This document shows positions 2,109-6,069 of a stretch of 50,422 nucleotides of DNA, piece after piece. The stretch comes from a candidate division WWE3 bacterium (GTDB lineage: Bacteria; Patescibacteriota; WWE3; UBA101185; UBA10185), in NCBI GenBank assembly GCA_012798315.1, contig JAAZNL010000012.1, positions 1 to 50,422 of the forward strand, read 5' to 3'. Under the pieces are notes generated by a model. That model searched no databases and had not been told where the DNA came from. It saw nothing but the letters and a program-made list of their open reading frames with translations. The translations under genes were made by a program, and so were the position numbers. How positions within the stretch are numbered: the first letter of the stretch is position 1; every line of letters starts with the position of its first letter.

Positions 2109-3374
2109 CTATTTGATCTGTTGAGAGATAATCGCACTTATTTCTTCGGATTTTTTAGCTACTAAGTATATCAGTTCGGCGTCATTTAATCTCGCCGATA
2201 TTTCTTTGTAATAATCAAGCGCCCTATTGATCATTGTGGGACTAAAGAGAACTTTGTCATATATTTGCTCATTACTGGCCCACCAGAATTGATCGCTGTG
2301 TAAAGACTTATTTACTAAGAGCATTAATTCAACTTTTGAACGGTCTTCAACACTCAATTTCTGCATTTCTACGGGATTCCACACTGCTACGTTTTCGAAA
2401 CCCTCAGGACTGGTAAAGTTTGCCACCTTCTCATAACTTTTAAGAATGTTTTCCTGGATATACCAAAGACTTTTTTGTATTTCATTGTCTTTATTCGCCC
2501 AAAGCTTGTACAACTTTGATGGATCTGTTGTACAGGATGCTTCACTCCAGTTAGATTCAAAAACAGCGTCTGCGTGCTCCATAGGACTTTCGGCAACCAA
2601 ATCCGATACGGTTGTTAAATTATTTCCGCTTCGTATTAATTTGTCGCAAATATCTTCGAGTAAATACATTCCTTCTTTGTTGTGGTGTCCAAAAGCCTCT
2701 GCATCCAAAGCTATCACAATAGAATCAGTTGTTTCGGATCTCTTATTAATCTTTTCAAGAATTTCGTCCCCAAATGAATCCCGCTTAAACGACAGCATAT
2801 TGCTTATTTCACCGTCTCTAATAACAACCAATGCAGTTTCATTTTTATACTTAAAAACATTCTGACCAAGCATTAAAATCTGTTCCTGAGGCACAACACA
2901 CTTATCCGCCAAAAGCCAATCGTAACCCAAAGAACTTACAAGTTTAATTACCGAGTCGTTTACACACAGTTCCGGAGGAAAAAAACCTCTGAGATTTTTG
3001 ACCAGAATAGACTCCTCACCTTCAAAACCTTGACGGGATCCTAAATAATAACCTAAACCAAATTCGTTCAGTATAATCCCCTGCTCGGCAAGAAGTTCGG
3101 GTGTTTTGGTGAGCAAAGAATGATACGCAACGCAACCTACAATTTCTATTCTCTCAGATTCATATAAATCGCGTAAATCTTTTAGCCATTCTTTATAACC
3201 ATATTTATCCATCTGCTCCAACAAACTCAACGGAACATTTAATGTAAATTTATAGTTCGGTTTATTTTTTATTAGCTTTATTAAAGGAAAGTAACTATCG
3301 GAACAGATTTGTTTAAAAACATTTTCTGTTTGTGTGGGAGGTTGATATAAGTGCAATAAAAAGCCAACATTCAC
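2109..3374 (-). CDS. glycoside hydrolase family 57, second paralog
   Basis: 421 aa. Motifs are HLYQPP (from H8), an IEIVGCVAYHSLL block, GFFPPELC with presumed nucleophile E135, and LDAEAFGHH with presumed acid/base D224. It is clearly related to the next gene (shared DQFWWAS and the two catalytic blocks) but about 100 aa shorter, lacking the UVR-like tail. It probably acts on cytoplasmic alpha-glucan with the two GlgA proteins. The start used here is GTG at 3374. No clear Shine-Dalgarno site lies in front of it, and the end of the structured RNA (3402) is only 27 nt upstream. Expression is therefore probably driven by the promoter at 3498-3526 through that RNA element. Confidence 0.84.
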   Translation of the reverse strand: MNVGFLLHLYQPPTQTENVFKQICSDSYFPLIKLIKNKPNYKFTLNVPLSLLEQMDKYGYKEWLKDLRDLYESERIEIVGCVAYHSLLTKTPELLAEQGIILNEFGLGYYLGSRQGFEGEESILVKNLRGFFPPELCVNDSVIKLVSSLGYDWLLADKCVVPQEQILMLGQNVFKYKNETALVVIRDGEISNMLSFKRDSFGDEILEKINKRSETTDSIVIALDAEAFGHHNKEGMYLLEDICDKLIRSGNNLTTVSDLVAESPMEHADAVFESNWSEASCTTDPSKLYKLWANKDNEIQKSLWYIQENILKSYEKVANFTSPEGFENVAVWNPVEMQKLSVEDRSKVELMLLVNKSLHSDQFWWASNEQIYDKVLFSPTMINRALDYYKEISARLNDAELIYLVAKKSEEISAIISQQIK

Positions 3375-3401
3375 AGCTAAAATTATGTCTTAAAACGCTT
3401 A

Positions 3402-3484
3402 GGAGGTCAACCCCGCCAGCGACTATTTCTTATTCTCCTGCCCACAGAATAAGAAACTAAATGTCTCTTGCGGGATCAACCTCC
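3402..3484 (-). ncRNA. highly structured RNA element (unclassified), own promoter, between glgA and GH57
   Basis: On the minus strand a 15-bp helix pairs 3470-3484 with 3402-3416, with no mismatch if G-U pairs are allowed. It is followed by an asymmetric internal loop (13 nt on one side, 9 on the other). A perfect 11-bp helix (3446-3456 with 3426-3436) then closes a 9-nt loop, GTGGGCAGG. A consensus-like promoter starts transcription just upstream (about 3491). There is only a weak T-run (TTTT) after the outer helix, so it could be a 5' leader element of the GH57 operon, an attenuator, or a separate small RNA. The stem-bubble-stem shape recalls 6S RNA, but at about 85-100 nt it is much shorter than known 6S RNAs. 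I do not recognise the family. Confidence 0.6.
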
Positions 3485-3497
3485 CAAATATGAGAGT

Positions 3498-3526
3498 AGT
3501 ATAGCAATAACTTATAGGATTGTCAA
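3498..3526 (-). promoter_or_regulatory. strong sigma70-type promoter for structured RNA / GH57 operon
   Basis: On the minus strand, TTGACA (3521-3526), 17-bp spacer, TATACT (3498-3503). The -35 box lies right after the glgA stop codon (3528-3530). The spacer contains ATCCTATAA, similar to the word found in the promoters of the GC-rich cassettes. The predicted start is near 3491, a few bases before the outer helix of the RNA. Confidence 0.75.
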
Positions 3527-3527
3527 T

Positions 3528-5090
3528 TTATCCCAATATGTATTCCATGGCTTTGTCTCGCGGGTTTTTCTTTGTTCTAAAGCCAATAGCTCGTTCATAT
3601 AGTTTTATGTATTCACGGGCGCTGTATTCCCAGCTGTAATCCATTTTCATTGCATTTTTCTGAAGTTTAGCCCAGATTTTTTTATTTCGGAATAATTCAA
3701 CAGCTCGAACAATCTGTCCATACAATGAAAACTCATTAAAATCTCTAAAGACAAATCCGGTGCCTGTCCCTTTGGCAGAATCAAAATCTTCAACAGTATC
3801 AGCCAATCCCCCGACTTTTCGAACAATTGGAATTGAACCATAACGCATGGCTTCAATCTGCACTATTCCACACGGTTCAAACCTTGAAGGATATACTATG
3901 CAATCGGTACCTGCAAAAATTAGTCTGGGTAGCGTAAAGTTCGGATAGGGGTGAATGCCAACTTTATTAGGATATTTGTCCTTAAATCTTTTTAATGATT
4001 CGCTTATAGTGCCGTCGCCGCCGCCCACCTGAACAAACTGGATATTAAAATCGCGCATAACGTGGTCTAATGTGTTAATCATTAAATCAACGCCCTTCAT
4101 ATAATCCAGCCTTCCTACGAATCCAAAAAGGGGTATATTCTCATCCACCGGCAAATCAAATTCTTTTTGCAGAGCCTTTTTGTTCTCTACCCTTTTTTCC
4201 ATATTGTCTATATCGTAATTAACCTCTATTAAATTATCTGAATGAGGATTAAATTCATCATAGTCTATGCCGTTTACAATACCAAAGACCTTACTTTTTA
4301 ATTCTAATAGCAATTTGTCTAAACCTTCGCCAAATTCCGGAGTCAGAATCTCCCTGGAATACGTTTTGGAAACTGTATTAACTACATCAGCGTACAATAA
4401 CCCTCTTTTCATAAAATTTTGTGAATTCAATCTAGGATTAAAAAAAGAAGCTATAGACGATTTACCATCATCCATATCCAATTCGGAAACATGTTTGTGG
4501 TCAAAGTTGCCCTGATATGCCAGGTTGTGAATTGTCAGACTGGTTGTGATTTTTGAAAGTATCGGATCTTTTTTATAAACGGATTTCAGGTAGTTCGGAA
4601 CGATTGCCGTATGCCAATCATTGCAATGTATTACATCGGGTATAAAGGCTCCGGTTCTTATAAATTCAAGAACTCCTCTGGATAACAAGGCCCATCTGGT
4701 AGGATCATCGCTGTACCCATAAACATTGGCGCGTTTTTCATAGTATTCTTGATTTTCCAAAAAGAAAACCTTAACACCGCACTCCATTTGAGTCATTTTT
4801 ACATTACACACCAAAAAAGGGGTTGCTTCATCATCGGTTGGAACCTGAATTCCTTCCTTAAACAAAGTTATTTTGTATTTTTCCTCATCTATAAAACCGA
4901 ATTTAGGGATAAATACAGCTACTTCATGGCCCAATTTCTGCAAAGATTTCGATAAATGACCAATAACAGAAGCAGCGCCACCTACTGACGCATACGGGGA
5001 CGCTTCTGTGGCTACCATTAGTATTTTTAGCTTATCAGGATGTGGGGAACTTGTGTTCGCCGCTTTTTTAGTCTTATTACCGGCTGACAT
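3528..5090 (-). CDS. glgA: glycogen synthase paralog (GT5) with substituted KxGG lysine
   Basis: 520 aa GT-B enzyme of family GT5. After a Lys-rich 20-residue lead, KILMVATEASPYASVGGAAS replaces the usual KxGG; the lysine position is S35. HCNDWHTAI (155-163) and the IHNLAYQGNF block are typical of the N-domain. In the C-domain GRLDYMKG keeps R327 and K332, and PSRFEPCG keeps E405 and C407. It should elongate alpha-1,4-glucans in the cytoplasm, but the lost N-terminal lysine may change donor binding or specificity. Predicted leaderless: extended -10 TGG-TAGAAT at 5098-5103, then 7 nt, then ATG. It lies downstream of an HTH regulator (gap 35 bp) and upstream of the GH57 pair. Confidence 0.9.
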   Translation of the reverse strand: MSAGNKTKKAANTSSPHPDKLKILMVATEASPYASVGGAASVIGHLSKSLQKLGHEVAVFIPKFGFIDEEKYKITLFKEGIQVPTDDEATPFLVCNVKMTQMECGVKVFFLENQEYYEKRANVYGYSDDPTRWALLSRGVLEFIRTGAFIPDVIHCNDWHTAIVPNYLKSVYKKDPILSKITTSLTIHNLAYQGNFDHKHVSELDMDDGKSSIASFFNPRLNSQNFMKRGLLYADVVNTVSKTYSREILTPEFGEGLDKLLLELKSKVFGIVNGIDYDEFNPHSDNLIEVNYDIDNMEKRVENKKALQKEFDLPVDENIPLFGFVGRLDYMKGVDLMINTLDHVMRDFNIQFVQVGGGDGTISESLKRFKDKYPNKVGIHPYPNFTLPRLIFAGTDCIVYPSRFEPCGIVQIEAMRYGSIPIVRKVGGLADTVEDFDSAKGTGTGFVFRDFNEFSLYGQIVRAVELFRNKKIWAKLQKNAMKMDYSWEYSAREYIKLYERAIGFRTKKNPRDKAMEYILG

Positions 5091-5125: not shown

Positions 5126-6034
5126 TTAAAGTACACTTTTAGCTTCGTCTATTAAGGTATTATCCCCTGTTTTTGTTATATCCTCAAGCAATTTAGTCTT
5201 TGATACAACAAATAAACCATGCATTTCTTCGCGGTTTGCGAATATACCTGTATCTGAAGATACATATAGGCAAAGTTGGGCTCCTGCCTCTTCCGAAGGT
5301 GTTAAACCTAAGACTCTTTCAAAGAAAGGAAGATCGCTAGGTTTCACATAAGCATGCAAAACCGAGAAGGGTTTTATTGGTTTGTACAAAGATAACCCAG
5401 CGTTCATAGAAAATGCGTAAGGAACACCTGCACTTCTGGACGTTTTATCGATATTTTGAGCTATGTCCTTTAGTCCTCCTAACGAGCTTCTGTAATACAA
5501 GGATTTGGTTGCAGGCGCAGTTCTAATTGGTTCTGAGGTAACCCCAGAAAACCCGGTAAAATTTTCCTGTGTTGGCTTGGTTTCTGTACTCGCTTCTAAT
5601 GTATCACTCTCTTCCCTAAACTTTTTAGCGGCTTCTCTAAATTTGGCTAACCAATCGACAGGCTCCTCTGCAACCTCGGGTTCTGCAGATACACTATCTT
5701 CAATCGGTTCTGTTTTAGTAACTGTATCCTTTGAAGCTATAACAGGTGTTTCAACTATCTTTGGCTGCTCTTTAACAACATCTTCTGCCATTGATGCTTT
5801 TTTAGGTGTTTCTTTAACTGGTACGTCATCATGTAAATCACGCGGGGTAACGGAACCGGCTGGGTATAAAAAATCTATTATGTTTTTCTTTGAAAACCTA
5901 TGTCTGCCTGTAGCAGTCTTTATCTCCGCATCAAGCTTACCTTCCTCCAAATATCTGTAAACGGATCGTAAACTGACTCCTAAAATTTCTGCAACCTCTG
6001 TGGATGTATATAAGCGTTCTTCAAGTTGTATCAT
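5126..6034 (-). CDS. MerR/excisionase-type HTH protein with long linker and unknown C-terminal domain
   Basis: 302 aa. Residues 1-57 (TSTEVAEILGVSLRSVYRYL, then KKNIIDFLYP) form a MerR/excisionase-like winged HTH that recognises DNA. Residues about 65-170 are Pro/Glu/Thr/Val-rich and look disordered. The C-terminal ~130 residues are a mixed alpha/beta domain I do not recognise, possibly a sensor. It is the first gene before glgA, so control of alpha-glucan genes is plausible but inferred. Its own promoter carries a dyad in the spacer, suggesting autoregulation. Predicted leaderless: the -10 ends six bases before ATG. Confidence 0.7.
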   Translation of the reverse strand: MIQLEERLYTSTEVAEILGVSLRSVYRYLEEGKLDAEIKTATGRHRFSKKNIIDFLYPAGSVTPRDLHDDVPVKETPKKASMAEDVVKEQPKIVETPVIASKDTVTKTEPIEDSVSAEPEVAEEPVDWLAKFREAAKKFREESDTLEASTETKPTQENFTGFSGVTSEPIRTAPATKSLYYRSSLGGLKDIAQNIDKTSRSAGVPYAFSMNAGLSLYKPIKPFSVLHAYVKPSDLPFFERVLGLTPSEEAGAQLCLYVSSDTGIFANREEMHGLFVVSKTKLLEDITKTGDNTLIDEAKSVL

Positions 6035-6040
6035 GATCTA

Positions 6041-6069
6041 ATGTAATCATTTACACAATACTGTGTCAA
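6041..6069 (-). promoter_or_regulatory. promoter with spacer dyad upstream of HTH gene
   Basis: On the minus strand, consensus TTGACA (6064-6069), 17-bp spacer, TTACAT (6041-6046), six bases to ATG 6034. An inverted repeat ACACA-N4-TGTGT (6053-6066) overlaps the -35 and most of the spacer. This fits binding of a MerR-like dimer between the boxes. Confidence 0.65.

Follow-up and report, generated by a model that had tools for sequence, protein, structure and literature searches.

Analysis of a 50,422-nt stretch of DNA (hereafter, the window) from a WWE3 bacterium identified a real and conserved RNA that is absent from Rfam and matches no described RNA family. Judged from its sequence features, the element is very probably an independent noncoding RNA gene, and we favor the reading, which we hold to be the probable one, that the RNA acts in trans through its apical loop as a base-pairing sRNA. 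Rfam gave no match to the RNA at gathering score, and no description of a regulatory RNA in Katanobacteria/WWE3 was found in the open-access literature.

Genomic setting, fold and conservation of the RNA

The window derives from a 0.9-Mb genome of the Patescibacteria. The minus strand carries, in order, a glgA-type glycosyltransferase gene (Glyco_transf_5, 3528–5090), the RNA element, the GH57 gene GH57-A (2109–3374), a second GH57 gene (538–2100), and another glgA-type gene. The first glgA-type gene lies directly 5' of the RNA and is missing beside it in five family members, while GH57-A, which is probably leaderless, always lies immediately 3' of the RNA. The RNA gene (3392–3491, minus strand) gave a covariance-model match of 82.8 bits (E = 6.1e-18), with the transcription start placed at ~3491 and the 3' end likewise inferred. 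The protein encoded by the second GH57 gene has a UvrB/UvrC-type motif at its C-terminus (residues 424–453).

The original prediction located a consensus promoter directly after the glgA stop, and this was borne out: TTGACA and TATACT, separated by 17 nt, lie at 3526–3498 on the minus strand, together with an extended -10 TG. This promoter was kept in all 21 of the loci first examined. Its spacer contains CCTATAA, which is conserved at the locus across the family, the core CCTATA being present in most of those loci. Promoter and spacer motif together (TTGACANNCCTATAA, allowing at most one mismatch) occur once in their own genome, and two complete WWE3 genomes each have a single occurrence of TTGACANNCCTATA, the spacer motif following TTGACA. 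A MerR/HTH_17-type regulator gene (5126–6034) is found two genes upstream of the RNA at a conserved position, and it directly adjoins the RNA in genomes lacking glgA; its product could be a binder of the CCTATAA spacer.

Folding of the RNA from ~3491 gave -48.4 kcal/mol, compared with a mean of -26.6 kcal/mol for 200 dinucleotide shuffles (z = -6.8), none of which was as low. The resulting hairpin spans 3488–3398 (minus strand). The fold first put forward had a 9-nt loop, which was retained, and helices that needed revision: the basal helix comprises ~19 bp plus 2- and 3-bp steps (3488–3463 with 3423–3398) instead of 15 bp, and the apical helix 12 bp (3457–3446 with 3436–3425) instead of 11 bp. 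Both arms of the apical helix, the 5' arm of which is GUUUCUUAUUCU, are defined by fold and covariation, and the internal loop is small and asymmetric. The 9-nt apical loop GUGGGCAGG occupies 3445–3437 and contains UGGGCAG (3444–3438), the predicted mRNA-pairing seed. The 3' arm of the basal helix (3398–3423) is followed in the window copy by GCGTTTT, a weak T-run of TTTT only. A T5 run soon after the stem was present in 17 of 24 copies, against a background of 7.6%; that of G005 comes rather late.

BLASTN against 57 relatives revealed the RNA core in most genomes of the same WWE3 family. The covariance model detected the RNA in 24 of the 27 genomes of this family, among them three (G005, G019, and G021) outside the training set of the model, and matched none of the 18 other genomes of the class and nothing outside the WWE3 family among 380 Patescibacteria. 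In CP006914.1, the RNA lies at ~562,815–562,915 on the minus strand. Lack of conservation or covariation of the helices in relatives had been named as a ground for refutation, and the element withstood this check: double compensatory changes occurred in 31 of the 35 base pairs in a 21-sequence alignment, and in 23 of the 23 modelled pairs of the basal helix. The covariation score was 0.585, compared with 0.250 in shuffles, and 0 of 500 shuffles reached this value; 90.6% of cells were paired, versus 72.8% in shuffles, and the signal collapsed when one arm was slid by a base. Because the RNA is conserved in the family and 31 of 35 pairs carry double compensatory changes, its structure is not due to chance. 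The apical loop UGGGCAGG showed no variation in the family alignment, and the loop sequence TGGGCAGG, invariant in the 21 aligned sequences, was also found in three further copies. The pair closing the loop is C-G in place of U-A in G019 and G021, a compensated change.

Other identities for the element were also considered. A repeat element or MITE was rejected as the RNA is single-copy in the genome, and a mobile or viral origin was rejected as viral contigs gave no match to it. A counterpart RNA in sister families was rejected as well, since glgA abuts GH57 directly there, with no RNA in between, and the covariance model finds nothing.

Relation of the RNA to GH57-A

The original prediction had left the element as either a structure controlling GH57 expression or a free RNA. 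It correctly noted that the gap to the GH57 start (3374) is only 27 nt and that a Shine-Dalgarno site is missing; both features are explained by an own promoter and a leaderless start of the GH57 gene. This promoter (TTGACC-17-CATAAT, 3410–3382, minus strand; 10 of 12 matches) overlaps the 3' arm of the hairpin and ends 7 nt before the GTG at 3374. A GH57 promoter scoring at least 9/12 and lying 6–7 nt ahead of the start was found in 18 of 24 RNA loci. In the two complete WWE3 genomes G020 and G010, the -10 hexamer ended exactly 6 nt 5' of the start in 44 and 51 genes, compared with ~7 at other offsets, a peak that is the signature of widespread leaderless mRNAs. The same signature was observed within the window at 6069–6034 and 3410–3374. 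The free RNA option is supported by the RNA's own promoter, its T-run terminator, and the separate GH57 promoter downstream. The own promoter and terminator expected of a trans-acting sRNA are thus present at the sequence level, with the T-run of the window copy being weak.

Five genomes (G001, G010, G014, G021, and G024) contain the RNA with no glgA beside it and have essentially no glgA-type match genome-wide, apart from one marginal match elsewhere in G010. All five keep the RNA next to a GH57-A-like open frame (309–437 aa); four of these frames have lost the catalytic Glu (PPE motif), and most have an altered catalytic Asp region. At loci L033, L041, L046, L047, and L218, where glgA has been lost, GH57-A downstream of the RNA has an open frame and is apparently catalytically dead.

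Two alternative explanations draw on this linkage. The RNA might be a cis-acting leader or attenuator of GH57, with read-through or termination at the hairpin set by a signal (a sugar or protein) at the invariant loop. The RNA is invariably located directly upstream of GH57-A, GH57-A is likewise missing from the three family genomes that have no RNA (incomplete assembly may contribute to this), and the stem and T-run could serve as an attenuator. However, the GH57 promoter and leaderless start lie downstream of, or overlap, the 3' end of the hairpin in most loci, an alternative anti-terminator pairing was not seen, and a cis leader would have no need of an invariant 9-nt loop that complements motifs of other genes. 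We consider a leader unlikely: the gene is apparently leaderless and transcribed from its own promoter, which argues against the proposed control in cis. It is also quite unlikely that the GH57-A protein binds the hairpin as a regulator, sensor, or sponge, with or without mRNA targets, in the manner of RapZ and GlmY/GlmZ. The continued adjacency of the RNA and a GH57-A-like gene in the five genomes without a neighboring glgA would fit such a partnership, as would the persistence there of a full-length frame despite the lost catalytic residues, but an RNA-binding domain was not found in GH57-A, the protein appears catalytically intact in most genomes, and the linkage may be mere adjacency.

Loop-complementary sites and candidate targets

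The RNA was also examined for complementarity to sequence around gene starts. Every 7-mer of the RNA was scanned against positions -30 to +39 of all genes in G020 and G010, excluding the start codon; starts were assigned mechanically by taking the longest open frame. The loop complement CTGCCCA was ~4–5-fold enriched near start codons, with 9 observed versus 2.1 expected in G020 (p = 2e-4) and 9 versus 2.4 in G010 (p = 4e-4); the motif had first been noticed via loop complements in these two genomes, and the scan does not represent independent data. UGGGCAG in the loop was the only RNA position outside A/T-rich k-mers that was significant in both genomes. The enrichment was restricted to the sense strand, as CTGCCCA and its reverse complement TGGGCAG occurred 18 and 3 times near starts versus 52 and 98 times in gene bodies (p = 1e-5), and TGGGCAG showed no near-start enrichment.

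When GC-rich near-start 7-mers were ranked de novo, Shine-Dalgarno variants came top, followed by TGCCCAA, TCTGCCC, and CTGCCCA, with the G-U-compatible word CTGCTCA close behind; the count for TGCCCAA reflects a related motif and is partly inflated by ATGCCCAA starts. TGCCCA was common to five ortholog pairs, compared with a mean of 0.3 for permuted k-mers, although three of the five are ATGCCC-type sites at the start or at an internal Met-Pro, and for this reason we relied on CTGCCCA instead. Complementarity to rRNA was rejected as the cause of the motif, the rRNA region being without TGGGCA. A weak near-start excess of CTGCCC was also seen in G018, which lacks the RNA (4 sites where ~0.9 were expected, p = 0.02), and the motif may therefore be independent of the RNA. 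A conserved structure with an exposed seed, and seed-complementary near-start sites above chance (weakly so in G018 as well), were thus both found, as for a trans-acting sRNA.

The sites point to ppsA, mraZ, galT, a MerR-like regulator gene, and a wall/secreted-protein gene as candidate targets. The ppsA site ATGAAYAAAAATACTGCCCAAAT is common to divergent orthologs, and the loop-complementary sites of mraZ and the MerR-like gene are conserved between divergent genomes. The site CTGCCCATG overlaps the AUG/start in three genomes in a gene that we take to be galT from reading its sequence, not from a database match. The mraZ codons CTT GGG and CTG CCC AAG AAA CTT showed unusually high synonymous conservation across the family. 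At the mraZ coding start in loci L219–L241, two synonymously conserved segments form a 9–10 bp inverted repeat (TTTCTTGGG/CCCAAGAAA), which suggests an mRNA-level element. The mraZ site is gone from three RNA-bearing genomes (G002, G004, and G007) and retained in G012, where the RNA was not found, and its conservation could be explained by a cis hairpin alone. Nor is mraZ the top duplex by energy, ranking 21st of 831 and 14th of 892.

Proposed mode of action and comparison with known RNAs

We propose that the strong promoter yields an RNA of ~95–100 nt, which would form one long hairpin and end at its own stem and U-run. The G-rich apical loop UGGGCAG would pair with CUGCCCA close to the starts of many mRNAs, which are often leaderless. 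Pairing at the first codons or start region would most likely block ribosome entry and lower translation; sRNAs are known to inhibit by pairing within the first codons (the 'five-codon window'). At mraZ, pairing might instead open an inhibitory hairpin, making activation possible: the sRNA segment AAGUUUCUU...GGGCAGG is similar to the first mraZ arm and might pair with the other. Transcription and the exact ends of the RNA, its pairing in vivo, and the direction of regulation are all inferred from the DNA. The predicted seed of only 7 bp, which would have to work with no known chaperone, counts against the trans-acting reading. No match to Hfq was found in two genomes, and CsrA was absent in 27 genomes; a CsrA-sequestering RNA was rejected on the latter ground and because the RNA has a single loop.

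If the RNA does act by base pairing, it would represent post-transcriptional sRNA regulation in ultra-reduced bacteria whose mRNAs are largely leaderless and in which neither Hfq nor CsrA was found. The RNA combines covariation across the family with an invariant loop, and its target motif can be tested, with specific predictions for ppsA, mraZ, and galT. A much broader and speculative view, to which we assign low probability, is that of a CPR-specific RNA family independent of Hfq and CsrA, whose invariant loop would act on leaderless starts, link carbon storage (ppsA, galT, and the glgA locus) to division (mraZ), and have a GH57-derived pseudoenzyme as its partner.

The original prediction likened the shape of the element to 6S RNA (RF00013), which it resembles as an abundant-looking stem-bubble-stem RNA with a strong promoter; unlike 6S RNA, it is far shorter, gives no score, and has no conserved central bubble. 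RF00013 had no match in the window and none at the locus at E ≤ 10, and 0 of 27 family genomes exceeded the cut-off while 4 control genomes did. A short 6S-like RNA binding RNA polymerase would fill a role left vacant in the family, where no 6S RNA was recognised, and would suit a single long hairpin whose internal loop is asymmetric. With about half the 6S length, no Rfam 6S score, and an apical loop rather than a promoter-like bubble as the invariant part, we regard this explanation as highly improbable, and the 6S likeness is not supported, as conservation peaks in the apical loop and not in a central bubble.

The RNA was also compared with other known systems. It shares with the bacterial small SRP RNA (RF00169) a single hairpin of ~100 nt, but lacks the SRP (domain IV) motif and gives no score. 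RF00169 had no match in G020, G010, the 27 family genomes, or 96 genomes of the phylum, and Ffh and FtsY were not found in the two complete genomes G020 and G010, in which the positive controls EF-Tu and SecA were found. SRP RNA identity was rejected on the basis of the missing RF00169 score and the absence of Ffh and FtsY; the SRP pathway (SRP RNA, Ffh, and FtsY) itself seems to be missing from WWE3. Like sRNAs of the RybB, MicC, and RyhB type, the WWE3 RNA is small and has its own promoter, an intrinsic terminator, and a short seed for several mRNA starts. It differs from them in that the seed is carried by the apical loop of a single long hairpin, Hfq was not found, many candidate targets look leaderless, and the family is lineage-specific without detectable relatives elsewhere. 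No sequence relation to the RapZ–GlmY/GlmZ system was shown, and the putative partner here is GH57-derived, but the two systems are alike in coupling an sRNA gene to a carbohydrate-metabolism protein.
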